Both the position numbers and the translations under genes were made by a program. From a virus: DNA of 48,937 nt. The stretch covers positions 1 through 48,937 of the IMG/VR virus record IMGVR_UViG_3300027712_001670; one strand, written 5' to 3'. The notes beneath the pieces were generated by a model. The model saw only the letters and a list, made by a program, of their open reading frames with translations. It ran no database searches and had not been told where the DNA came from. Shown piece after piece: positions 28,978-43,491 of the stretch (the first letter of the stretch is position 1; every line of letters begins with the position of its first letter).

Positions 28978-31900
28978 ATGAAAGATGTATTTTATTACGG
29001 TCAAAAACCTAACGTTCACCCAAAAGAAAAATTTGCTTCGTCCTTAGCAGATGCTAGAAGTAAATCTACAACCGAACATTTTTGGATAATTAACGAATTC
29101 TGTGACTATCGTAATTTTGATTGGGATTTTGATTTTGAATTTCTACCTGATGAAGATGTGTGGGCTTCGAAACACAATAATATATGGCCCAGTCAACATC
29201 AAAAAGATAGCGGAACATGGTTATGTTCATTAGAACCCAGTAATATACTTATATATCGTGCTGATGTTAACCCTCTTATTCGTAAGAATATAAAGAATGA
29301 TAATTGGGTAATATTATATCAAATTGATGAAATTAAATTTGATTTCAGTTGGCATCCTGATCCAACTGATCCTTCCTATACTTATGTATGGGGCAACCAA
29401 TGGCATTCTGGTAAGATTATGCCTACAGTTAAATATTCCGTACCTGGTTCGTCTGAAGTAAAATATATTGAAAATAATATTGCGATACTAGCACAATTAC
29501 TTGAAAACTTTGATATTCTTGAAGAAGTTGAGAATTTTGATTTTAGTTGGCATCCTAATCCAACCAGTCCTCCGTATATCTATGTATGGGGTAATCAATG
29601 GAATAAACCAGAAGATAAAATAAGTGTGCAGTTTGTTGTAGAAGGTGCAACAGAGTATAAGTATATGGACCAACGTGCTACTCGTAAGCCATGCATGGAT
29701 AATTGGGTTATACCTAAAAATGTTGATATAGATGGATTTGATTTTAGTTGGGAACCCAGTCCAGCCGATCCCCCTTATATATATGAATTTGGAACTCAAT
29801 GGCAAAAGACAGGTGGTCCTCGTTATATAGTTGAAGGTGCGACGGAAACAAAATATATTGATTTTCAAAAAGCAAAAGCATTACCTAATAAAGATAAATG
29901 GACAATACCCGATAATATTGATATTAACGATTTTGATTTTAGTTGGCACCCAGATAGTACGAGTCCTCCTTATATCTATCATTTTGGTACTCAGTGGGCA
30001 CTGACAGGAGGACCTGTATATGCTTGTGAAGGTGCTACTGAAATCAAATATGTAGACGATATGGAAGCCAAAGCTCTACCAAATAAAACGAATTGGGAGT
30101 ACGACTCTAATGTCATTGATGAAAGTATGTTTGATTTCTCATGGCACCCATATGTAGAAGATCAACCTTATATTTACCAATTTGGAACTCAATGGCAGAA
30201 GACAGGTGGACCTCGATATATTACACCTGGTACGCATAAAAATAGCCCAGTTAAGTATGTTGATACACGAATAATAAGGGCAACTAGATTGCCATCCAAT
30301 AATTATTGGAGAGTTATTAATAACTACAAAATAGCAGATTTTGATTATAGTTGGCATCCAGATGAAACTGATGAGCCATATATATATGTATTTGGTAATA
30401 ATTATTATCCAGCTGAAATTATGCCTACTATTGAGTATGTACCTGATAATATACCTAGATTAGCATCAGGCGACCCAATTGGTCAAATAAAATATGTTAA
30501 TGATGTAGTTGCTAAATTAGGCCAAAATAAAACAAATTGGATTATACCTGAAGATGTGGATGAAGGTAGTTTTGACTTTAGTTGGGTACCTAATCCTAAA
30601 GATCCACCGTACATATACGAATTTGGTACTCAATGGCATGATAGGGGAGGACCTAAGTATGTGCTACCTAATAAAGGTCTTATATTAGCTTCAGGACAAC
30701 TTATTGGTGAATATAAATATGTAAGTGATTTGGTTGCTACTCTAAAACTAAATAAAACTAATTGGATAATACCTGAAGATATGGATATTACCAGTTTTGA
30801 CTTTAGTTGGGTACCGCACCCCGACGACCCCCCTTACATATACGAATTTGGTACTCAATGGCATGATAGGGGAGGACCTAAGTATGTGCTACCTAATTTA
30901 GGATTGGTAGGAACTTCAGGACAACTTATTGGTGAATATAAATATGTAAGTGATTTGGTTGCTACTCTAAAACCAAATAAAACTAATTGGATTATTCCTG
31001 AAGATATAAATGAAGGCAGTTTTGATTTTAGTTGGGTACCTCACCCAGATGATCCCCCTTACCTATACGAGTTCGGTACACAATGGCAGAAAACAGGCGG
31101 ACCTAAATATGTAATTGAGGGGGCGACCGAGTACAAATATGTTGATATACAAAAAGTAAGAAAATTATACAATAAGAATAATTTTGTTATTTTAGATAAT
31201 AATATTATTGATGAATTTGATTATAGCTGGCATCCAGATAGTACCGATGAGCCATATATATATGTATTTGGTAATAACCAATACCCAGCTGAAATTATGC
31301 CAACTATTCAATATGTAGTACCTGAAGCAACAAAAATTAAATATGTTAATGATATAGTCGCTAAACTAGGTCAAAATAAAACAAATTGGATTATACCTGA
31401 AGATGTGGATACCGCTAGTTTTGACTTTGGTTGGGTACCTAATCCCAAAGATCCCCCTTATATATATGAATTTGGCACCCAATGGCAAAAAACAGGTGGT
31501 CCTCGTTATATAATTGAAGGTGCGACGGAAACAAAATATATTGATTTTCAAAAAGCAAAAGCATTAGTAAGCCAAACTCACTGGACAGTACCCAGTAATA
31601 TTGATGTTACCGATTTTGATTTTAGTTGGCACCCAGACGGTACAAGTCCTCCTTATATCTATCACTTTGCCACTCAATGGGCATTAAGTGGTGGTCCAAT
31701 CTACACGGTAGAGGGTGCTACTGAAATCAAATATGTAGATGACATGGCAGCTAAAGCTCTACCAAATAAAACGAATTGGGAGTACGACTCTAATGTCATT
31801 GATGAAAGTATGTTTGATTTCTCATGGCACCCGTATGCACAAGACGAACCTTATATTTACCAATTTGGAACTCAATGGCAGAAGACAGGTGGACCTCGAT

Positions 31901-34900
31901 ATATTACACCTGGTACGCATAAAAATAGCCCAGTTAAGTATGTTGATACACGAATATTGAAAGCAAAACGGTTGCCTAATAAGAAAAAATTTGCAATAGT
32001 AAACAACTACAAAATAGCAGATTTTGATTATAGTTGGCATCCAGACATTACTGATGAGCCATACATATATGTATTTGGTAATAACCAATACCCAGCAGAA
32101 ATTATGCCTACTATTGAGTATGTACCTGATAATATACCTAGGTTGGAATCAGGTGTCCCAATTGGTCAAATAAAATATGTTAATGATGTAATTGCTATAC
32201 TGGGAGAAGATAAAACATTTTGGGAAGTACCTAATAGTATAGACGTTACTGGATTCGATTTCAGTTGGGTACCTAATCCCAAAGATCCCCCTTATATATA
32301 TGAATTTGGCACCCAATGGCAAAAAACAGGTGGTCCTCGTTATATAATTGAAGGTGCGACGGAAACAAAATATGTTGATATACAAAAAGTAATCGCATTA
32401 CCTAATGATAAATGGACAGTACCCAGTAATATTGATGTTACCGATTTTGATTTTAGTTGGCATCCAGATAGTTCAAGTCCTCCTTATATCTATCACTTTG
32501 CCACTCAGTGGGCACTAAGTGGTGGTCCAATCTACACAGTAGAGGGCGCTACTGAAATCAAATATGTAGATGACATGGCAGCTAAAGCTCTACCAAATAA
32601 AATGAATTGGGAGTACGACCCTAATGTAATTGATGAAAGCATGTTTGATTTCTCATGGCATCCATATGCACAAGACGAACCTTATATCTATCAATTTGGA
32701 ACTCAATGGCAGAAGACAGGTGGACCTCGATATATTACACCTGGCACGCATAAAAATAGCCCAGTCAAGTATGTTGATACACGAATAATAAGGGCAACTA
32801 GATTGCCATCCAATAAATATTGGAGAGTTATTAATAACTATGTAGTAAAAGATTTTGATTACAGTTGGCACCCAGATGAAACCGAAGAACTGTACATATA
32901 TGTATTTGGTAATAACCAATACCCAGCAGAAATTATGCCTACTATTGAGTATGTAGTACCTGAAGCAACAAAAATTAAATATGTCAATGAAGTAGTTGCT
33001 AAATTAGGACCAGACAGAACTAATTGGGTTATCATTCAGCCTATTAATGAAGATAAGTTTGATTTTAGTTGGAAACCTAATCCTAAAGATCCACCGTACA
33101 TATATATATGGGGTAATTCTTATATTGATGGGAAAATTAAATCTACAGTTGAATATCGCGTTCCAAGTGCTACTGAGTACAAATATATGGATGAGTTAGT
33201 AGAAGTAACTCCAGAACGGGACCGTTGGATTATTCCTGAGTATATAGATATAAGTAAGTTTGACTTTACTTGGAGACCAGATCCATTAGAAGCGCCTCTC
33301 AAGTGGCAATTCGGTACTCAATGGCAAAAGACAGGTGGTCCTTGCTATATAATGCCCGATTCAATAGAAACAAAATATGTTGATATACAAAAAGTAATTG
33401 CATTACCTAATAAAGATAAATGGACAATACCCAGTAATATTGATGTTACTGATTTTGATTTTAGTTGGCACCCAGACGATACAAGCCCTCCTTATATCTA
33501 CCACTTTGCTACTCAGTGGGCACTAAGTGGAGGTCCAATTTACACGGTAGAGGGAGCTACTGAAATAAAATATATAGATGACATGACAGCTAAAGCTCTA
33601 CCAAATAAAACGAATTGGATTATACCTGAAGATATAGATGAAAACAGTTTTGATTTTAGCTGGCATCCAAATTCGAATGAAAAACCATACATATATCAGT
33701 TCGGCACTCAATGGCAGAAAACAGGTGGTCCTCGTTACATAGTTGAAGGTGCAACGGAAACAAAATATGTTGATATACAAAAAGCAAAAGCATTACCTAA
33801 TAAAGATAAATGGACAATACCCGATAATATTGATGTTACTGATTTTGATTTTAGTTGGCACCCAGACGGTACAAGTCCTCCTTATATCTATCACTTTGCC
33901 ACTCAGTGGGCACTAAGTGGTGGTCCAATCTACACAGTAGAGAGCGCTACTGAAATAAAATATGTAGATGACATGGCAGCTAAAGCTCTACCAAATAAAA
34001 CGAATTGGGAAATACCTGAGTTTATAGATATCGATTCGTTTGATTTCTCATGGCATCCATATGTAGAAGATCAACCTTATATCTATCAATTTGGAACTCA
34101 ATGGCAGAAGACAGGTGGACCTCGATATATTACACCTGGCACGCATAAAAATAGCCCAGTCAAGTATGTTGATACACGAATATTGAAAGCAAAAAGACTT
34201 CCTGCTATTGAACATAATTTTATTATTTTAAATAATAACATCATTGATGAATTTGACTATAGTTGGCACCCAGACATTACTGATGAGCCATATATATATG
34301 TATTTGGTAATAACCAATACTCGGCAGAAATTATGCCAACTATTCAATATGCACCTGATAATGTACCTAGGTTGGCATCAGGAGCGCCAATTGGTCAAAT
34401 AAAATATGTTAATGATGTAGTTGCTAAATTAGGTCAAAATAAAACAAATTGGGTAATACCCGAAGATATAGATGAAAGTAGTTTTGATTTTAGTTGGGTC
34501 CCTAATCCCAAAGATCCACCTTATACATATGAATTTGGTACTCAATGGCAGAAAACAGGTGGTCCTCGTTACATAGTTGAAGGTGCAACGGAAACAAAAT
34601 ATGTTGATATACAAAAAGTAATCGCACTACCTAATAAAGATAAATGGACAGTACCCGATAATATTGATGTTACTGATTTTGATTTTAGTTGGCACCCAGA
34701 TAGTACAAGTCCTCCTTATATCTATCACTTTGCCACTCAGTGGGCACTAAGTGGTGGTCCAATCTACACAGTAGAGGGCGCTACTGAAATAAAATATTTG
34801 GAAGAGCCGAATGCTGTAGCATTACCAAATAAAACGAATTGGGAAATACCTGAGTTTATAGATATCGATTCGTTTGATTTCTCATGGCATCCATATGCAC

Positions 34901-37900
34901 AAGACGAACCTTATATCTATCAATTTGGAACGCAACACCAAAAGACAGGTGGACCTCGATATATTACACCTGGTACGCATAAAAATAGCCCAGTCAAGTA
35001 TGTTGATACACGAATATTGAAAGCAAAAAGTTTGCCTAATAAGAAAGGATTTTCGTCTATTAATAATAATATTATTGATGAATTTGACTATAGTTGGCAC
35101 CCAGACATTACTGATGAGCCATATATATATGTATTTGGTAATAACCAATACTCGGCAGAAATTATGCCTACTATTGAGTATGTACCTGATAATATACCTA
35201 GGTTGGAATCAGGCGCGCCAATTGGTCAAATAAAATATGTTAATGATGTAGTTGCTAAATTAGGTCAGAATAAAACATTTTGGGTAATACCTGAAGATGT
35301 GGATACTACCAGTTTTGATTTCAGTTGGGTACCTCATCCAGATGATCCTCCTTACATATACGAATTTGGCACTCAATGGCACGATAGGGGAGGACCTAAA
35401 TATGTGCCACCTAATAAAGGTCTTGTACTGGCTTCGGGTAAACTTATCGGTGAGTACAAATATGTAAGTGATTTAGTTGCTAAATTAAAACCAAATAAGA
35501 CTAATTGGGTAATACCCGAAGATGTGGATACGACCAGTTTTGATTTCAGTTGGGTACCGCACCCAGATGATCCTCCCTATATATACGAATTTGGTACTCA
35601 ATGGCAAGAAACAGGAGGGCCTAAATATGTGCCACCTAATAAAGGATTATTTGGTGAATCAGGTCAACTTATCGGCGAGTACAAATATGTGAGTGAATTG
35701 ATTGCTACATTGAAACCAAATAAAACCAACTGGATTATACCTAAAGATATAGATGAAAGTAGTTTTGACTTTAGTTGGCATCCAAATTCCAATGAAAAAT
35801 CATACATATATCAGTTCGGTACTCAATGGCAAAAGACAGGTGGACCTCAGTATATATCTAAAGATATTCCTAGATTACCATCAGGCGTACCTATAGGTGG
35901 TCAAATAAAATATGTTGATATTATTAAAGCTAAAAAAATATCCAATAAAACTTATTGGACTAATCCTAACAATGCAGATATTAGTACATTTGATTTTAGT
36001 TGGCATCCGGACGAGAGTTCTCCTCCCTATATCTATCAATTTGGAACATTATTAGATAGAGAAGACGGGCCTAGATACATGACACCGAATACCAATGGGG
36101 TGATTTCATACTTAGAACGAGTTGAAAAAGAAGTTGAAGAAGTTGAAGAAGTTGTAGAAGAATTTGTAAAATATGATTTCCCTAAATATTATATTTCTAC
36201 TACGCTTGACGATCTAGTAAAAGATCACCCAAATGAAATGTTTTGGGCATTAAATCCTAATTTAGATTATAGCGATTTTGATTTTAATTGGAGACCTAAT
36301 ATTGACCGATCGCAATATGAATCAGAATATGTTCATGTGTTTGGATCTAGTGCAAGTGAAAAAACACAGACTTATTTAGTTAATAGTGCAATGTGGGAGA
36401 AAGGTTTTAGAGAATTAAATTGGGTCATTGACAAAAAACTTGATGACGAAACATTATTTAAAATGTTTAAAAAATCCGATATGTTCTTTGTAGACAGAAA
36501 TAATTCAGAATCCCAAGTAAGATTCGAGCAACTTAAACTTAAGTTTCCTAATATACAAAAAACAAGATATCTAAATAGTTGGGTAGATACTATTAATCGC
36601 TGTATCAACCGTGCTAGTAGCAATTTATGTTGGATATTAAATAGTGAACTAGATTATACTAATTTTGATTTTGATTATTATCCCAATCCGTGGCAAATGA
36701 AAATGGTTCATGTATTTGGAACTCAATGGAGTCACTGGGGTACTACCTTTATGGTAAATCGTGAGTCATTTGCGGAAGACACTAAATGGATTAAAATTAT
36801 AGAACATTTAAACAATCTTAATTTTGTAAAAGATAGGACCGCCGTAGCCGATACCAATTTGTATGACATATATGTAGTAGATCACGGAAATAAAGAAACA
36901 GAATTAGTAGTTAATCAATTAACTAAAAAATCATCAGGTAAATCAGTTAATATTATTAAATATACTGAAAATTATTTACTTACATTTAGAAATTTATTAA
37001 GACAGCTTCCCGAAAAGAAAGACCATTATGTTTGGTTATGTAGTAGTATTTGTGATTATAGTAATTTTGACTTTAGTTACATATGCGATCCTTTCGCTCG
37101 TGAACAACTACATGTATTCCCCAGTGATAAACAAAATTTAGGTGATACCTTTTTAGTCAATATTAATAAATTCCGTGAATTAATTAACAATATGACTTTG
37201 TTGAATGAATATAATAAAATAAATTATAATCAACATCAGCGTGTTAAAAGATTAGAACCTCCTACTATTATTACTAATCATGATTCTCATGTATTAAGTG
37301 TAATGGAAGATTTTAATTTTCCATATGCGGTCTTCTTATCAGAAGACAACAAAGATTTAAAAGTTACAGATGAAGAACCTATTAGTTTATGGAGTAGCGA
37401 CACTAAAAATATTGTCATAACTAGCACTGGCGGAACAAGAATCGTAGTTCCTAAAGAAGTTAAAAATTATGTAGATACTCAATTATATGATTATCCATAT
37501 ATTAAAAAGGCCAATACACTTGCTTCTAGTAATAAGTTAGACATTATCTTTTTAAGTAATGGTGAACCTAATGCGGATGAAAATTATGAAAATTTGTTGA
37601 AATTAACTAGAGGGTTGCCAAACAAAATTACTAGGATAGAGGGTATTAATGGTAGAGTAGCCGCATATCATAAAACAGCAGAGGTTAGTACTACCAGTTG
37701 GTATTTTGTTGTTTGGGGTAAGTTGTTTGTCAATCCAAAGTTTGATTGGTCATGGCAGCCTGATAGATTACAGATTCCTAAGAACTATATATTTCATGCC
37801 AAAAATCCATTAAACGGATTAATATATGGTCATCAAGCAGTTGTTGCATATAATAAAAAATTAGTATTATCTACTAAAGGAAATCAATTAGATTTTACTA

Positions 37901-38190
37901 TGGAAAGCCCGCATATAGTTGTTCCTGTATTATCAGGTACAGCTAACTATAATTGCGATGCTTGGACTACATGGAGAACCGCTTTTAGAGAATGCATTAA
38001 ACTTAGATACGATAATACGGAAGAAAGTAAAAATAGATTAAAAATATGGTTAACTAAAGCCATTGGAGATTTTGCAGACTTTAGTATTAAGGGAGCCAAT
38101 GACGCTATAGAATATTTTGATAGCGTAGACGGGGAATATTCTAAACTCAAATTGAGTTATGAATGGGATTGGTTACGGAATAGATTTTAG
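28978..38190 (+). CDS. Giant repeat protein with glycosyltransferase-like C-terminal domain
   Basis: A 3070-residue protein, the largest gene here. Residues 1-~110 are an N-terminal divergent unit (FWIINEFCDYRNFDWDFDF). About 115-2370 hold ~33 tandem units of 60-90 residues built on W-x-I-P-x-x-I-D-x3-F-D-F-S-W-x-P-x4-P-P-Y-I-Y-x-F-G-T-Q-W, then GGPRY, GATE and KYVD. A short Glu/Val coiled segment (~2380-2400) follows. Then come about three diverged, longer modules (~2400-2830) in which the F-D-F core sits inside what looks like a larger GT-A-like unit. The C-terminal domain (~2854-3070) is homologous to the 4468 protein. No signal peptide or membrane segment. It could be a scaffold, a carbohydrate-binding array or a structural fibre; function unknown. 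The frame is open throughout, so it is intact. Confidence 0.8.
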   Translation: MKDVFYYGQKPNVHPKEKFASSLADARSKSTTEHFWIINEFCDYRNFDWDFDFEFLPDEDVWASKHNNIWPSQHQKDSGTWLCSLEPSNILIYRADVNPLIRKNIKNDNWVILYQIDEIKFDFSWHPDPTDPSYTYVWGNQWHSGKIMPTVKYSVPGSSEVKYIENNIAILAQLLENFDILEEVENFDFSWHPNPTSPPYIYVWGNQWNKPEDKISVQFVVEGATEYKYMDQRATRKPCMDNWVIPKNVDIDGFDFSWEPSPADPPYIYEFGTQWQKTGGPRYIVEGATETKYIDFQKAKALPNKDKWTIPDNIDINDFDFSWHPDSTSPPYIYHFGTQWALTGGPVYACEGATEIKYVDDMEAKALPNKTNWEYDSNVIDESMFDFSWHPYVEDQPYIYQFGTQWQKTGGPRYITPGTHKNSPVKYVDTRIIRATRLPSNNYWRVINNYKIADFDYSWHPDETDEPYIYVFGNNYYPAEIMPTIEYVPDNIPRLASGDPIGQIKYVNDVVAKLGQNKTNWIIPEDVDEGSFDFSWVPNPKDPPYIYEFGTQWHDRGGPKYVLPNKGLILASGQLIGEYKYVSDLVATLKLNKTNWIIPEDMDITSFDFSWVPHPDDPPYIYEFGTQWHDRGGPKYVLPNLGLVGTSGQLIGEYKYVSDLVATLKPNKTNWIIPEDINEGSFDFSWVPHPDDPPYLYEFGTQWQKTGGPKYVIEGATEYKYVDIQKVRKLYNKNNFVILDNNIIDEFDYSWHPDSTDEPYIYVFGNNQYPAEIMPTIQYVVPEATKIKYVNDIVAKLGQNKTNWIIPEDVDTASFDFGWVPNPKDPPYIYEFGTQWQKTGGPRYIIEGATETKYIDFQKAKALVSQTHWTVPSNIDVTDFDFSWHPDGTSPPYIYHFATQWALSGGPIYTVEGATEIKYVDDMAAKALPNKTNWEYDSNVIDESMFDFSWHPYAQDEPYIYQFGTQWQKTGGPRYITPGTHKNSPVKYVDTRILKAKRLPNKKKFAIVNNYKIADFDYSWHPDITDEPYIYVFGNNQYPAEIMPTIEYVPDNIPRLESGVPIGQIKYVNDVIAILGEDKTFWEVPNSIDVTGFDFSWVPNPKDPPYIYEFGTQWQKTGGPRYIIEGATETKYVDIQKVIALPNDKWTVPSNIDVTDFDFSWHPDSSSPPYIYHFATQWALSGGPIYTVEGATEIKYVDDMAAKALPNKMNWEYDPNVIDESMFDFSWHPYAQDEPYIYQFGTQWQKTGGPRYITPGTHKNSPVKYVDTRIIRATRLPSNKYWRVINNYVVKDFDYSWHPDETEELYIYVFGNNQYPAEIMPTIEYVVPEATKIKYVNEVVAKLGPDRTNWVIIQPINEDKFDFSWKPNPKDPPYIYIWGNSYIDGKIKSTVEYRVPSATEYKYMDELVEVTPERDRWIIPEYIDISKFDFTWRPDPLEAPLKWQFGTQWQKTGGPCYIMPDSIETKYVDIQKVIALPNKDKWTIPSNIDVTDFDFSWHPDDTSPPYIYHFATQWALSGGPIYTVEGATEIKYIDDMTAKALPNKTNWIIPEDIDENSFDFSWHPNSNEKPYIYQFGTQWQKTGGPRYIVEGATETKYVDIQKAKALPNKDKWTIPDNIDVTDFDFSWHPDGTSPPYIYHFATQWALSGGPIYTVESATEIKYVDDMAAKALPNKTNWEIPEFIDIDSFDFSWHPYVEDQPYIYQFGTQWQKTGGPRYITPGTHKNSPVKYVDTRILKAKRLPAIEHNFIILNNNIIDEFDYSWHPDITDEPYIYVFGNNQYSAEIMPTIQYAPDNVPRLASGAPIGQIKYVNDVVAKLGQNKTNWVIPEDIDESSFDFSWVPNPKDPPYTYEFGTQWQKTGGPRYIVEGATETKYVDIQKVIALPNKDKWTVPDNIDVTDFDFSWHPDSTSPPYIYHFATQWALSGGPIYTVEGATEIKYLEEPNAVALPNKTNWEIPEFIDIDSFDFSWHPYAQDEPYIYQFGTQHQKTGGPRYITPGTHKNSPVKYVDTRILKAKSLPNKKGFSSINNNIIDEFDYSWHPDITDEPYIYVFGNNQYSAEIMPTIEYVPDNIPRLESGAPIGQIKYVNDVVAKLGQNKTFWVIPEDVDTTSFDFSWVPHPDDPPYIYEFGTQWHDRGGPKYVPPNKGLVLASGKLIGEYKYVSDLVAKLKPNKTNWVIPEDVDTTSFDFSWVPHPDDPPYIYEFGTQWQETGGPKYVPPNKGLFGESGQLIGEYKYVSELIATLKPNKTNWIIPKDIDESSFDFSWHPNSNEKSYIYQFGTQWQKTGGPQYISKDIPRLPSGVPIGGQIKYVDIIKAKKISNKTYWTNPNNADISTFDFSWHPDESSPPYIYQFGTLLDREDGPRYMTPNTNGVISYLERVEKEVEEVEEVVEEFVKYDFPKYYISTTLDDLVKDHPNEMFWALNPNLDYSDFDFNWRPNIDRSQYESEYVHVFGSSASEKTQTYLVNSAMWEKGFRELNWVIDKKLDDETLFKMFKKSDMFFVDRNNSESQVRFEQLKLKFPNIQKTRYLNSWVDTINRCINRASSNLCWILNSELDYTNFDFDYYPNPWQMKMVHVFGTQWSHWGTTFMVNRESFAEDTKWIKIIEHLNNLNFVKDRTAVADTNLYDIYVVDHGNKETELVVNQLTKKSSGKSVNIIKYTENYLLTFRNLLRQLPEKKDHYVWLCSSICDYSNFDFSYICDPFAREQLHVFPSDKQNLGDTFLVNINKFRELINNMTLLNEYNKINYNQHQRVKRLEPPTIITNHDSHVLSVMEDFNFPYAVFLSEDNKDLKVTDEEPISLWSSDTKNIVITSTGGTRIVVPKEVKNYVDTQLYDYPYIKKANTLASSNKLDIIFLSNGEPNADENYENLLKLTRGLPNKITRIEGINGRVAAYHKTAEVSTTSWYFVVWGKLFVNPKFDWSWQPDRLQIPKNYIFHAKNPLNGLIYGHQAVVAYNKKLVLSTKGNQLDFTMESPHIVVPVLSGTANYNCDAWTTWRTAFRECIKLRYDNTEESKNRLKIWLTKAIGDFADFSIKGANDAIEYFDSVDGEYSKLKLSYEWDWLRNRF
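29320..36090 (+). repeat. Tandem coding repeats within the giant gene, with a four-unit super-repeat
   Basis: About 33 recognisable units (counted by the F-D-[FY]-[SGT]-W core) fall into classes by the residues after P-Y-I-Y: E-FGTQ, H-FATQ, Q-FGTQ and V-FGNN. They recur in the order E-H-Q-V at least four times, with local E-E-E and Q-H-Q-H variants. DNA copies are nearly identical in places: 30164-30273 and 31847-31956 match over 110 bases with no difference that I can see, 1683 bases (561 codons) apart. This indicates recent expansion by unequal recombination that kept the frame. Confidence 0.9.
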
Positions 38191-39888: not shown

Positions 39889-40038
39889 ATGTATAAATTT
39901 CAATTATGGGTTAAGATTAACGACTTTCAAACTGCTCATACTATAGTATGGGCCAGCAATGGTTGGGAAGCCAAACTGTTAGGTGAGGCTCAGTATGGCG
40001 TAGGCAATGTTCTTAACTATACACAGGTTGACGACTAA
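39889..40038 (+). CDS. Small hypothetical protein
   Basis: A 49-residue ORF beginning MYKFQLWVKINDFQTAHTIVWA and containing GWEAKLLGEAQYG. The codon use is ordinary and the peptide looks foldable (beta-beta-alpha-beta). It starts 4 bases after the previous stop and has no strong ribosome site, so translation may be coupled by reinitiation. Its end overlaps the possible -35 box of the tmRNA gene. No family recognised. Confidence 0.5.
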   Translation: MYKFQLWVKINDFQTAHTIVWASNGWEAKLLGEAQYGVGNVLNYTQVDD

Positions 40039-40057
40039 ATAAAAGTATTGTTGTAAA
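40028..40057 (+). promoter_or_regulatory. Possible promoter of the tmRNA gene
   Basis: TTGACG (40028-40033) is followed after 18 bases by TGTAAA (40052-40057), a fair -35 and a weak -10. The position just upstream of the first tmRNA segment is right. Read-through from the 39218 promoter is an alternative. Confidence 0.35.
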
Positions 40058-40061
40058 AACC

Positions 40062-40360
40062 GTAAGGAAAGAAGCAAGTCAAAAGACGGACAAGACGGGG
40101 GTGCGAATCCCCCCACCTCCACCAAAAGCATACTGTAGTGACGCTGGGGAAGAGTAATAGTCAGCGGTTAATAAATCTTCCAAGTGTGCTTTTGATGGGG
40201 GTGACTAGAATCGATTGACGGATGAGTAGATGAGCAGACAACACGATAGGCGATGGACGTAATCCAAGCAAAAACGATAATCGCAAATGATGATTATTTT
40301 GGAGAAGTACGCTTAGCCGCGTGATCTCCATGAGGTAGGAAAGACCTTATCACCAAACCA
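40062..40360 (+). ncRNA. ssrA: Circularly permuted tmRNA (ssrA) encoding tag ANDDYFGEVRLAA
   Basis: The two halves of a tmRNA are present in swapped order. First comes the acceptor part: T stem GGGGG (40097-40101), loop TGCGAAT, CCCCC (40109-40113), then CACCTCC, A, and encoded CCA ending at 40124. After ~72 bases the 5' part begins at 40197 with GGGGGTG, which pairs over 7 bp (one G-U) with CACCTCC at 40114-40120, followed by the D-loop-like GATTGACGG. The resume codon GCA is at 40283 in a context like that of E. coli (ATAATCGCAAATGATGA), and the tag frame runs 40283-40324: Ala-Asn-Asp-Asp-Tyr-Phe-Gly-Glu-Val-Arg-Leu-Ala-Ala, TGA. GGAGA/TCTCC pairs around the tag end. TTGAC/GTCAA can form part of helix 2. 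tmRNA rescues stalled ribosomes with SmpB and marks products for proteolysis. Ends of the mature pieces are approximate. Confidence 0.92.
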
Positions 40361-40365
40361 ACCTG

Positions 40366-40396
40366 TAATAGGCCCTTCGGGGCCTATTATTTTGTT
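40366..40396 (+). terminator. Rho-independent terminator after tmRNA
   Basis: A 10-bp stem (TAATAGGCCC / GGGCCTATTA) closes on a stable TTCG tetraloop (40376-40379) and is followed by a T-rich tail. It ends transcription of the tmRNA just before the next promoter. Confidence 0.9.
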
Positions 40397-40420: not shown

Positions 40421-40449
40421 TTGACATTAAATTAGCATAAGTGTATACT
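40421..40449 (+). promoter_or_regulatory. Strong sigma-70-type promoter
   Basis: TTGACA (perfect -35, 40421-40426), 17 bases, TATACT (40444-40449). The ATG at 40480 with AAGGAG upstream is the matching start. The in-frame GTG at 40441 lies inside this promoter and cannot be the start. Confidence 0.85.
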
Positions 40450-40479: not shown

Positions 40480-40851
40480 ATGAGCGAAGTTACTTACAAG
40501 CGTTGGGAAGAGTACACTCCATTGGAGCAAACCGCTAGTATTTGGTGGGACATGTATAAAGATGCCTATAACTTCCGCCCACGAGGTGTGGATACCTCTG
40601 ACTGGACGCTAGAGACCTTCCGTAAGGAGATCGACTATCTCCAAGAAGTGATCGAGCGCAACGAGGCCCTGCGTGTCATTGAGGAGGACGTGGCTATCCA
40701 GCGCTTCGAAGAGCGTATCCAGCAGATCCTTGCAGTGGGTGCAAAGGATCGTGCAATGGCACTGCGTTGGATTCACGAGGCTGAGGATACGGACGGTGAT
40801 GATGAGTACCTCTGCTTTCGAGTTGGCATCCCTTATGGATATTTCAAATGA
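40480..40851 (+). CDS. Small acidic hypothetical protein, probably early-expressed
   Basis: A 123-residue protein starting MSEVTYKRWEEYTPLEQ at the ATG with AAGGAG 8 bases upstream. It is acidic and mostly helical (ETFRKEIDYLQEVIERNEALRVIEEDVAIQRFEERIQQIL), with Trp-rich ends. No domain recognised. Its codons are visibly richer in G and C than those of the island genes (for example CGC, GAG, ATC and CTG runs), closer to the two genes that follow. Placed directly under a strong host-type promoter it may be an early host-interaction protein. Confidence 0.75.
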   Translation: MSEVTYKRWEEYTPLEQTASIWWDMYKDAYNFRPRGVDTSDWTLETFRKEIDYLQEVIERNEALRVIEEDVAIQRFEERIQQILAVGAKDRAMALRWIHEAEDTDGDDEYLCFRVGIPYGYFK

Positions 40852-41020: not shown

Positions 41021-42121
41021 ATGGCTCAAGTATCTGACAATCTTACTGTTACTAGCGTTCAGGCCCGTAAAGCAATTCTCAAGGCTTTCAAGGTCAAGCG
41101 TCCCGTATTTCTTTGGGGCCCTCCCGGAATCGGTAAGTCTGAGGTTGTTTCCGAAATCACCGAAGAGCTTGGTGGTTTTATGATTGATTTGCGTATGGCG
41201 CAAATGGAACCCACTGACATTCGTGGTATTCCTTTCTTCAACAAAGAGATAGGAAAAATGGACTGGGCTCCCCCAGTTGATCTTCCTGATGAGGAATTCG
41301 CTAGTCAGTATCCCGTTGTCTGTTTGTTCTTGGACGAGATGAACTCGGCAGCCCCCGCTGTACAGGCTGCAGGATATCAGTTGATTCTCAATCGCCGTGT
41401 TGGTAAGTATAAGCTTCCTGACAATGTGGTGATTGTCGCGGCAGGTAACCGTGAGTCCGATAAGGGTGTTACTTATCGCATGCCGATGCCCCTTGCTAAT
41501 CGGTTCTTGCATATTGAAATGCGCCCCGATTTTACTTCGTGGCAGAACTGGGCAGTTAACAAAGGCATTCACAAGGATGTGGTTGGTTATCTGTCGTTTG
41601 CTAAACAGGATCTCTATGACTTTGACGCAAAGTCATCTAGCCGCGCATTTGCTACTCCCCGTAGCTGGTGCTTTGTGTCTGACCTGTTGAATGATGAAGA
41701 GGACACTGACTCTGATACACTGTTCAACTTGGTTGCAGGTTCGGTTGGTGAGGGTCTTGCTGTCAAATTTATGGCACACCGTAAGGTTGCAGGTCAAATG
41801 CCCGAACCTAGCGATATTCTCGCAGGTAAGGTTAAGGAACTGCGTGTCAAGGAAGTATCAGCGATGTATTCTTTGACGATTTCAATGTGCTATGAATTGA
41901 AAGACGCACTGGATAACAAAAAAGTTAGCAACAAACAGTTTCATGAAATGGCTGATAATTTCTTCAGTTACATCATGGCAAATTTTGAAACTGAATTGGT
42001 CGTAATGGGCGCTAAGATTGCACTTAAGACTTACCGTCTTCCGATCGAACCCAGTCAATTGAAAAACTTTGATGACTTCCACAAAAAATACGGGAAGTAC
42101 ATCGTAGAAGCAGGTAACTAA
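41021..42121 (+). CDS. MoxR-like AAA+ ATPase
   Basis: A 366-residue AAA+ protein. Walker A GPPGIGKS is at residues 33-40, Walker B FLDEMN at 103-108, and sensor 1 in VIVAAGN near 143. PMPLANRFLHIEM carries the arginine-finger/sensor region as in MoxR-type ATPases. Such ATPases work with VWA-domain partners in assembling or activating protein complexes; a VWA/metallopeptidase-like gene follows directly (42208). It has its own perfect-consensus promoter, an AGGAG ribosome site and a terminator, so it is a single-gene unit. GC-richer codon use than the island. Confidence 0.9.
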   Translation: MAQVSDNLTVTSVQARKAILKAFKVKRPVFLWGPPGIGKSEVVSEITEELGGFMIDLRMAQMEPTDIRGIPFFNKEIGKMDWAPPVDLPDEEFASQYPVVCLFLDEMNSAAPAVQAAGYQLILNRRVGKYKLPDNVVIVAAGNRESDKGVTYRMPMPLANRFLHIEMRPDFTSWQNWAVNKGIHKDVVGYLSFAKQDLYDFDAKSSSRAFATPRSWCFVSDLLNDEEDTDSDTLFNLVAGSVGEGLAVKFMAHRKVAGQMPEPSDILAGKVKELRVKEVSAMYSLTISMCYELKDALDNKKVSNKQFHEMADNFFSYIMANFETELVVMGAKIALKTYRLPIEPSQLKNFDDFHKKYGKYIVEAGN

Positions 42122-42207: not shown

Positions 42208-43491
42208 ATGAGCGAAGTAATTGCCCCGACTAAAAAGCGTAAACGCAGTAAAAAATTTGAGAATTTGGTCGGCCCTACCGACACTAAAGTAGACTTCAAT
42301 GCCCGTGAGCGGTTGGTAACTGCTCGGATTGGTCTGCTTCTACGCCATTCATTCTTTGGTAATCTTGCAACCCGTATGCAACTAGTTAACGCCGACGAAT
42401 GGTGTTCTACTGCCGCAACCGATGGTCTAAAGTTTTATTATAACTCTAGGTTCATTATGATGCTCAAGCCTAAGGAAGTTGAATTCTTGGTTGGGCATGA
42501 AGTTCTACATGTGGTTTACGACCATATCGGTCGCCGAGGCAATCGTGATCCCCGGCTTTGGAACATTGCCGATGACTACGCAGTCAACGCCGATCTGAAA
42601 CGGCACAAGGTTGGCGAGTTTATCAAAACCGTTCCTTGTTTGTATGAAGTAAAGTATGACGGTAAGTCTGCTGAAGAAATCTATGACGACCTTTACGAAA
42701 AGGCTGAAAAGATTAACGTCGAGGATCTTATCGACCAAATGATTGATGATCATATGGAAGGTGATAATCAAGGCGAGAATGATGGCGAAGAGATTGAAGG
42801 TAGCGGCAAGGTTAAAGGTCGTCCTAAGATGAGCCCTGAAGAGCGTGAGCGTGTCCGTCAGGAAGTCAAACAGGCTATCATCAATGCCGCACAAGGTGCT
42901 GAAGCAGGTTCTATTCCTAAAGGGGTAGAACGTATGATTAAACAGCATACTAACCCAATTATGCCTTGGCGTGAATTGATTCAGACTAATTTGACAAGTG
43001 CTATCCGCACTGACTTTAGTTTTATGCGTCCTAATCGTCGCGGTTGGCATATGGATGCTATCATGCCTGGTATGACCCCGGGCGAAGAAATTGATGTTGT
43101 GGTTAGTCTTGATATGTCAGGCTCTATCACTGATAAACAAGCTCAGGCATTCTTAGGCGAGATCGCAGGTATGATGGATGCGTTTGATGGTTACAAGGTC
43201 CATGTATTCTGTTTTGATACAGAAACTTATAACCCGCAAGACTTTACCAGCGAGAATATGGATACAATTGATTCATATGAACCAGTTGGTGGCGGTGGTA
43301 CTGACTTTGATTGTATCTTCGGTTATCTTAAAGAAAATGCAATTGTACCCAAGCGTTTGATTGTCTTTACTGATGGTTACCCTTGTGGTAGCTGGGGAGA
43401 CTCTGAATATTGTGATACGACATGGATTATTCACGGTGATAAGGATCCCAATCCCCCGTTTGGTACATTCGCACTATATGACGAGAAGTGA
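42208..43491 (+). CDS. DUF2201-type metallopeptidase-like / VWA-like protein
   Basis: A 427-residue protein. The N-terminal part has a zinc-protease signature, His97-Glu98-x-x-His101 in FLVGHEVLHVVYDH, followed by IADDYAVN. A charged linker comes next (about 170-225, Glu/Asp/Gly then RPKMSPEERERVRQ). The C-terminal VWA-like domain has a MIDAS motif Asp302-x-Ser304-x-Ser306 (VSLDMSGS), GGGGTDF and IVFTDGYP. This is the layout of DUF2201 proteins, usual partners of MoxR ATPases. The pair may remodel a host or phage protein complex; the target is unknown. It overlaps the next ORF by 14 bases. Confidence 0.88.
   Translation: MSEVIAPTKKRKRSKKFENLVGPTDTKVDFNARERLVTARIGLLLRHSFFGNLATRMQLVNADEWCSTAATDGLKFYYNSRFIMMLKPKEVEFLVGHEVLHVVYDHIGRRGNRDPRLWNIADDYAVNADLKRHKVGEFIKTVPCLYEVKYDGKSAEEIYDDLYEKAEKINVEDLIDQMIDDHMEGDNQGENDGEEIEGSGKVKGRPKMSPEERERVRQEVKQAIINAAQGAEAGSIPKGVERMIKQHTNPIMPWRELIQTNLTSAIRTDFSFMRPNRRGWHMDAIMPGMTPGEEIDVVVSLDMSGSITDKQAQAFLGEIAGMMDAFDGYKVHVFCFDTETYNPQDFTSENMDTIDSYEPVGGGGTDFDCIFGYLKENAIVPKRLIVFTDGYPCGSWGDSEYCDTTWIIHGDKDPNPPFGTFALYDEK

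Follow-up and report, generated by a model that had tools for sequence, protein, structure and literature searches.

A permuted tmRNA gene in a viral contig

Does this phage locus, in which the CCA-ending half of a tmRNA is encoded ahead of its 5′ half, specify a working two-piece molecule, or is it the trace of a bacterial gene that a phage once captured? In bacteria, tmRNA releases stalled ribosomes and marks the products of these ribosomes for breakdown. The window (the whole 48.9-kb stretch of an IMG/VR virus record that was analysed) had been proposed from its sequence alone to carry a circularly permuted tmRNA gene, with Rfam and ARAGORN suggested as checks. Both Rfam models and the sequence itself place such a gene on the + strand at 40026-40392. 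RF04321 (tmRNA_permuted), Rfam's merged permuted model for the tRNA-like domain, matches 40066-40324 with 107.8 bits (E 3.6e-20; gathering score 47; Rfam 15), and the betaproteobacterial model RF01850 (beta_tmRNA) matches 40026-40392 over its full length (1-331) with 89.7 bits (E 7.3e-26; gathering score 84). The two matches above cut-off, in the record of a virus, confirm the identification. The ARAGORN check was divided: at default settings no tmRNA was reported for the window gene (score below threshold), but at an 80% threshold (-ps80) the same permuted gene was returned as 'tmRNAp*', with the tag ANDDYFGEVRLAA. An unusual G at position 55 of the T-loop (see below) was considered as the cause of the default miss and rejected, because ARAGORN finds 92 of 108 viral genes of the TGC type and 46 of 52 of the TTC type.

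The RF04321 match is accompanied by a CCA-ending 3′ half that precedes the 5′ half, a G3-U70 pair, and a tag frame with a stop codon. As the sequence-only reading had it, the CCA-ending acceptor half (40097-40124) lies upstream of GGGGGTG at 40197; the acceptor stem has seven pairs of seven, one of them G-U; and the tag frame opens with GCA at 40283 and closes with TGA, with exactly the peptide given there. The G-U pair is G3-U70. The gene is slightly longer than the 40062-40360 first assigned to it, extending from approximately 40044 to a terminator at 40365-40390. Its parts, with the evidence for each (L191 and L346 are loci of two close relatives), are as follows:

40026..40392, +, permuted tmRNA gene, full beta_tmRNA match including the terminator (RF01850, RF04321)
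40044..40124 (5′ boundary approximate), +, acceptor piece, made up of the 5′ side of helix 2, the T-arm, and the acceptor 3′ strand with its CCA (block conserved in L191 and L346; RF04321)
40097..40113, +, T-arm GGGGG-TGCGAAT-CCCCC, position 55 being G and not U (sequence; two T-stem pairs compensated in L346)
40114..40124, +, acceptor 3′ strand CACCTCC (40114-40120) and ACCA (40121-40124) (7/7 pairs with 40197-40203)
40125..40196, +, 72-nt spacer between the halves, presumably excised (fold; terminal stem common in viral spacers)
40197..40324, +, coding piece, comprising the acceptor 5′ strand, the D-loop (ACTAGAATCGAT), the returning strand of helix 2, the region of the first hairpin/pseudoknot and the tag frame (RF04321, RF01850, two-piece cofold)
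40283..40324, +, tag reading frame ANDDYFGEVRLAA with TGA (40322-40324), resume codon GCA at 40283 (sequence; ARAGORN -ps80)
40331..40352, +, stem-loop 3′ of the tag, approximately TGAGGT...ACCTTA (alignment by eye, fold)
40365..40390, +, intrinsic terminator (matches the 3′ hairpin of beta_tmRNA)

Directly upstream of the gene, a search revealed no convincing sigma-70 promoter, and the gene may therefore be transcribed by read-through from upstream genes. A near-consensus sigma-70 promoter (TTGACA-17-TATACT, 40421-40449) is present directly past the tmRNA terminator, ahead of a 123-aa gene at 40480.

Pairing between the two halves is kept among close relatives

Three tmRNAs of the lineage, those of the window, L191 and L346, were aligned without regard to structure and have a mean column identity of 88%. 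Within this alignment, the L346 acceptor stem reads CCGGTCC/GGGCCGG as against CACCTCC/GGGGGTG in the window, and its T-stem reads TCGGG/CCCGA as against GGGGG/CCCCC. All five pairs altered in L346 are compensated, three in the acceptor stem (across the 72-nt spacer) and two in the T-stem; each of the three sequences can form all 12 pairs of these stems, and G3-U70 is unchanged. When the pairing partner was slid by one to three columns as a control, at most two compensated changes were obtained. Since the acceptor strands flank the spacer in permuted order, the compensated changes are direct evidence that the two halves pair, and this comparison of sequences indicates that selection maintains pairing between the two encoded halves. 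The fold of the T-arm, spacer and 5′ half has a z-score of -3.7; together with the five compensatory double changes relative to a close relative, this argues that the gene is not a chance arrangement. Additionally, the stem-loop that follows the tag is altered in sequence in L191 but retains its pairing (alignment read by eye).

The ends of the window spacer also pair in the predicted fold, AAAAGCATAC (including the last A of CCA) with GTGTGCTTTT, and thus lengthen the acceptor helix of the precursor. Similar terminal stems are general among 141 viral spacers: the longest terminal run averages 10.8 bp, as against 5.1 bp in shuffles, and 89% of the viral spacers have a terminal stem of at least 8 bp, as against 5% of shuffles. 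This stem probably presents the ends to processing nucleases. It is the only spacer feature above chance, as a candidate H-type pseudoknot (CGCTG/CAGCG with GGAAGA/TCTTCC) was dropped after it was found in 436 of 1000 dinucleotide shuffles. Spacers of permuted phage tmRNA genes have a median length of 70 nt, and long ones of 382 and 220 nt were seen (L355:6603-7000, L356:6603-7000 and L431:1552-1790).

An alternative form of the T-loop/D-loop elbow

In tRNA, position 55 is normally a U that is modified to pseudouridine and contacts G18 (PMC7912444), and pseudouridine-55 has also been reported in the tmRNA T-loop of E. coli (PMC3968760). The window T-loop instead reads TGCG, not TTCG, with G at position 55 and A18 in the D-loop. 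Position 55 being G, no pseudouridine can be formed there. The remainder of the D-loop/T-loop contact is kept (G19 and C56), and the 18-55 combination is A-G instead of G-U. A contact between these loops in tmRNA was shown by mutation, according to the part of PMC3968760 that cites Barends 2002.

Across viral permuted tmRNAs, positions 18 and 55 are strongly associated. Under a fixed-offset rule, U55/G18 occurs 41 times, U55/A18 never, G55/A18 112 times and G55/GG four times (Fisher p ~1e-33, with shared ancestry ignored). The four G55/GG cases read AGG, in which a one-base shift places A at position 18, and most other exceptions are likewise one-base differences in length. Both elbow positions switch at once between near-identical relatives (L346 and the window). 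No earlier description of 18-55 covariation in tmRNA was found in the literature searched, although this does not establish that the covariation is new. Some tmRNAs have a T-loop of a third type, GGCGGTA or GGCAGTA/GGCAGTG, again with AG in the D-loop (L364, L375, L378, L380, L418 and others).

The possibility that TGCG reflects damage or an oddity confined to phages was rejected, as G55 is common in viral permuted tmRNAs and also occurs in Caulobacterales permuted genes and in one-piece tmRNAs from several phyla. It is present in 121 of 174 collected viral permuted tmRNAs, a sample enriched for G55 by one search pattern, and in 35 of the 69 distinct permuted tmRNAs among the matches listed in an unbiased first scan. 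The G55/A18 form is also found in permuted genes of Caulobacterales, and Bacilli, Acidobacteria, candidate phyla and others have it in one-piece tmRNAs. For instance, a Caulobacter vibrioides genome has a permuted tmRNA with this elbow and the tag ANDNFAEEFAVAA; the part of PMC3968760 citing Keiler 2000 states that two-piece tmRNA functions in Caulobacter. Given this occurrence, and the switch between near-identical relatives, the TGCG T-loop is a natural alternative form, not damage.

Distribution, genomic context and origin

The sequence-only reading had held tmRNA genes to be uncommon in phages and permuted ones more so, an expectation that the survey data do not support. An earlier survey listed only ten phages with tmRNA (PMC4131195) and a 2025 database has 79 phage tmRNA sequences (PMC11915505), while Buchholz et al. 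2022 counted 402 phages with 133 unique structures, of which 53 are two-piece, 50 of these 53 being marine or aquatic (PMC9004378). A pattern scan of IMG/VR viral contigs for the permuted arrangement matched at least 120 stretches, and at least 69 distinct sequences (the window included) pass T-stem and D-loop tests; the total comparison set, to which a Stenotrophomonas phage isolate contributed one sequence, comprises 174 distinct permuted tmRNAs of viruses. In 80 related viral loci fetched with the neighbouring AAA ATPase gene as anchor, a permuted tmRNA lies upstream of that gene on the same strand in 29, approximately 0.6 to 7.5 kb away, many of the loci including little upstream sequence. 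RF04321 scores above its cut-off in 23 of 49 whole related records, and the 26 without an RNA-model match above cut-off include many short fragments. On the synteny, the record matches and the scan, permuted tmRNAs are common in phages, and two-piece phage tmRNAs have already been surveyed and annotated in isolates.

The anchor, a MoxR-like AAA ATPase gene (41021..42121, +; phrog_1297, E 1.8e-100), is downstream of the tmRNA gene. It has 50% identity, and the neighbouring DUF2201/VWA gene 42%, to counterparts in large Pseudomonas phages (284-288 kb). The AAA genes of syntenic relatives are 79-98% identical to it, the longest of these phage records measuring 335 and 259 kb, and the closest (98%) is on a 335-kb viral contig (L345) that also bears a near-identical tmRNA, that of L191. 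Therefore, the window probably derives from a large phage genome of which it covers only a part. The gene adjoining the ATPase (42208-43491) is assigned by PHROGs to HNH endonucleases, and called 'homing endonuclease' in several phages, whereas Pfam finds a DUF2201 metallopeptidase-like and a VWA-like domain. Near the tmRNA gene, 28978-38190 is an open frame of 3070 aa that matches hardly any known family; the 335-kb relative has 89% identity to it over 673 aa. Further upstream, a cargo cluster (6206-28966) encodes two radical SAM proteins, a C-methyltransferase, a UDP-glucose dehydrogenase-like protein and a carbamoyltransferase, a content that suggests synthesis of a surface sugar or small molecule.

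The nearest bacterial sequences in a tree are permuted tmRNAs of Burkholderiales, at a distance of 0.67 compared with 1.37 for Caulobacterales, the joining node having a support of 0. The full-length RF01850 match above cut-off likewise resembles the betaproteobacterial two-piece tmRNA, reportedly described by Sharkady and Williams in 2004. However, in the four Burkholderiales permuted genes that were inspected the elbow is U55/G18 and the spacer 24-42 nt long, and three of the four do not encode the final A of CCA, whereas the window gene combines G55/A18 with a spacer of 72 nt and encodes the complete CCA. The proposed origin from a host with the permuted form is plausible for the deep past, but the immediate source is descent within the phage lineage, since the gene is syntenic in many relatives.

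Several phage isolates offer further comparisons. The Methylophilales phage Melnitz and its relatives, tailed phages, also carry a complete circularly permuted tmRNA for which the same roles have been proposed, but the Melnitz tmRNA is of the alpha type and linked to a glutamine riboswitch (PMC9004378), whereas the window gene fits the beta model and the Rfam search of the window gave no riboswitch. The only isolates with DNA matching the window gene (74.7% over 92 nt), which are also its neighbours in the tree, are the Stenotrophomonas phages YB07, Marzo, Yut2 and Yut3 (Menderavirus). Their permuted tmRNA (ARAGORN tmRNA*) has another tag than that of the window, ending in ANDDSYTVRIAA, and differs also in its U55/G18 elbow and its position in a tRNA cluster. 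Brevundimonas phage vB_BgoS-Bajun and Caulobacterales ssrA share the permuted arrangement and the G55/A18 elbow with the window gene, but they have the acceptor stem GGGGCCG and other tags and are distant in the tree.

Tag peptides and probable function

Among viral permuted tags, 149 of the 151 read end in AA and 137 of these in LAA, as expected if proteolysis is selected. The window tag had been thought unusual, and it is indeed absent from the closest relatives, which have ANDEVFSLAA and ANDEVFAIAA and from which it differs by nine extra bases and several changes; however, the similar tags ANDAFFGEVRLAA and ANDAFFGDVRLAA occur in other viral contigs. Tags therefore evolve faster than the remainder of the gene. 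Altogether, 92 distinct tags were found across viral contigs. Two related phage tmRNAs, at L436 and L445 (each with its start near locus position 1501), encode ANDNTYLLASNG and ANDSQFLLAANA, respectively; neither of these tags ends in AA, and they may therefore not act as ClpX degrons.

The reading preferred here, at a probability of roughly 85%, is that the gene has been passed down in a large-phage lineage and encodes a functional beta-type tmRNA, circularly permuted and hence in two pieces, that acts with host factors; most likely it would serve, together with the SmpB of the host, to rescue ribosomes and tag their products in infected cells. The precursor transcript would fold with its acceptor stem formed and extended by the spacer helix, and host RNase P and 3′ processing nucleases would excise the spacer, leaving two RNA pieces that the acceptor stem would hold together with helix 2. 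The encoded CCA end would then be charged by host alanyl-tRNA synthetase through the G3-U70 identity, and host SmpB and EF-Tu would bring the charged tmRNA to stalled ribosomes. The ANDDYFGEVRLAA tag would direct the stalled product to host proteases of the ClpXP type, and ribosomes would be freed during infection, when many host messages are likely broken. A host source of SmpB is assumed because no SmpB gene was found in the window record, a 48.9-kb piece of a probably larger genome, or in 19 related records. Judged from sequence, a two-piece product, retagging and ribosome rescue in the phage are reasonable proposals.

Three other explanations were weighed. That the gene is a captured host copy or pseudogene, for example one left by integration into host ssrA, with no present function, is very improbable. 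Phages do integrate into ssrA and carry fragments of it (discussed in PMC9004378), and some relatives lack the tmRNA gene, but a complete gene with compensated changes on both halves largely refutes this explanation, and it is further opposed by synteny across relatives whose AAA genes are 79-98% identical, by intact tag frames with degron-like LAA ends, and by the terminator. Just as little credence is given to a decoy or inhibitor, that is, a phage RNA that competes for SmpB or alanyl-tRNA synthetase and so blocks host trans-translation. There is a precedent, in that a molecule with only the tRNA-like domain, like the tag-less form of mycobacteriophage DS6A, inhibits E. coli tmRNA (PMC4131195, PMC11915505), and the tags of L436 and L445 lack the AA end; yet a decoy would have no need of the tag frame, resume context and LAA end that almost all relatives keep.

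Somewhat less unlikely, though still doubtful, is that the main point of the gene is altered protease or adaptor specificity, with ANDDYFGEVRLAA replacing the host tag, rather than added rescue capacity. The divergence from the tags of near-identical relatives and the number of distinct viral tags are in keeping with such a role. However, the tags conserve the C-terminal LAA that ClpX would be expected to recognize, and tag diversity, which is wide among bacteria too, may be near-neutral.

Implications for tmRNA evolution in large phages

The near-identical relatives, with five compensated pairs and a coordinated elbow switch, constitute a natural experiment and provide clean evidence that the halves must pair. 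The joint switch of elbow and stems between close relatives is the part that may surprise a specialist, and the window gene provides a tmRNA in which the lack of a pseudouridine-55 site can be put to the test. Tentatively, and as a conjecture that is probably wrong, the lineage may keep one tmRNA at a fixed locus while exchanging its tRNA-like identity (acceptor stem, T-stem and the 18-55 contact, G-U or A-G) as a block between RNAs that are otherwise nearly identical, and its tag separately. If so, the tRNA-like domain would be under selection, for example for escape from host defences that cut tRNA; other drivers could be evasion of modification enzymes or fit to differing host SmpB proteins.
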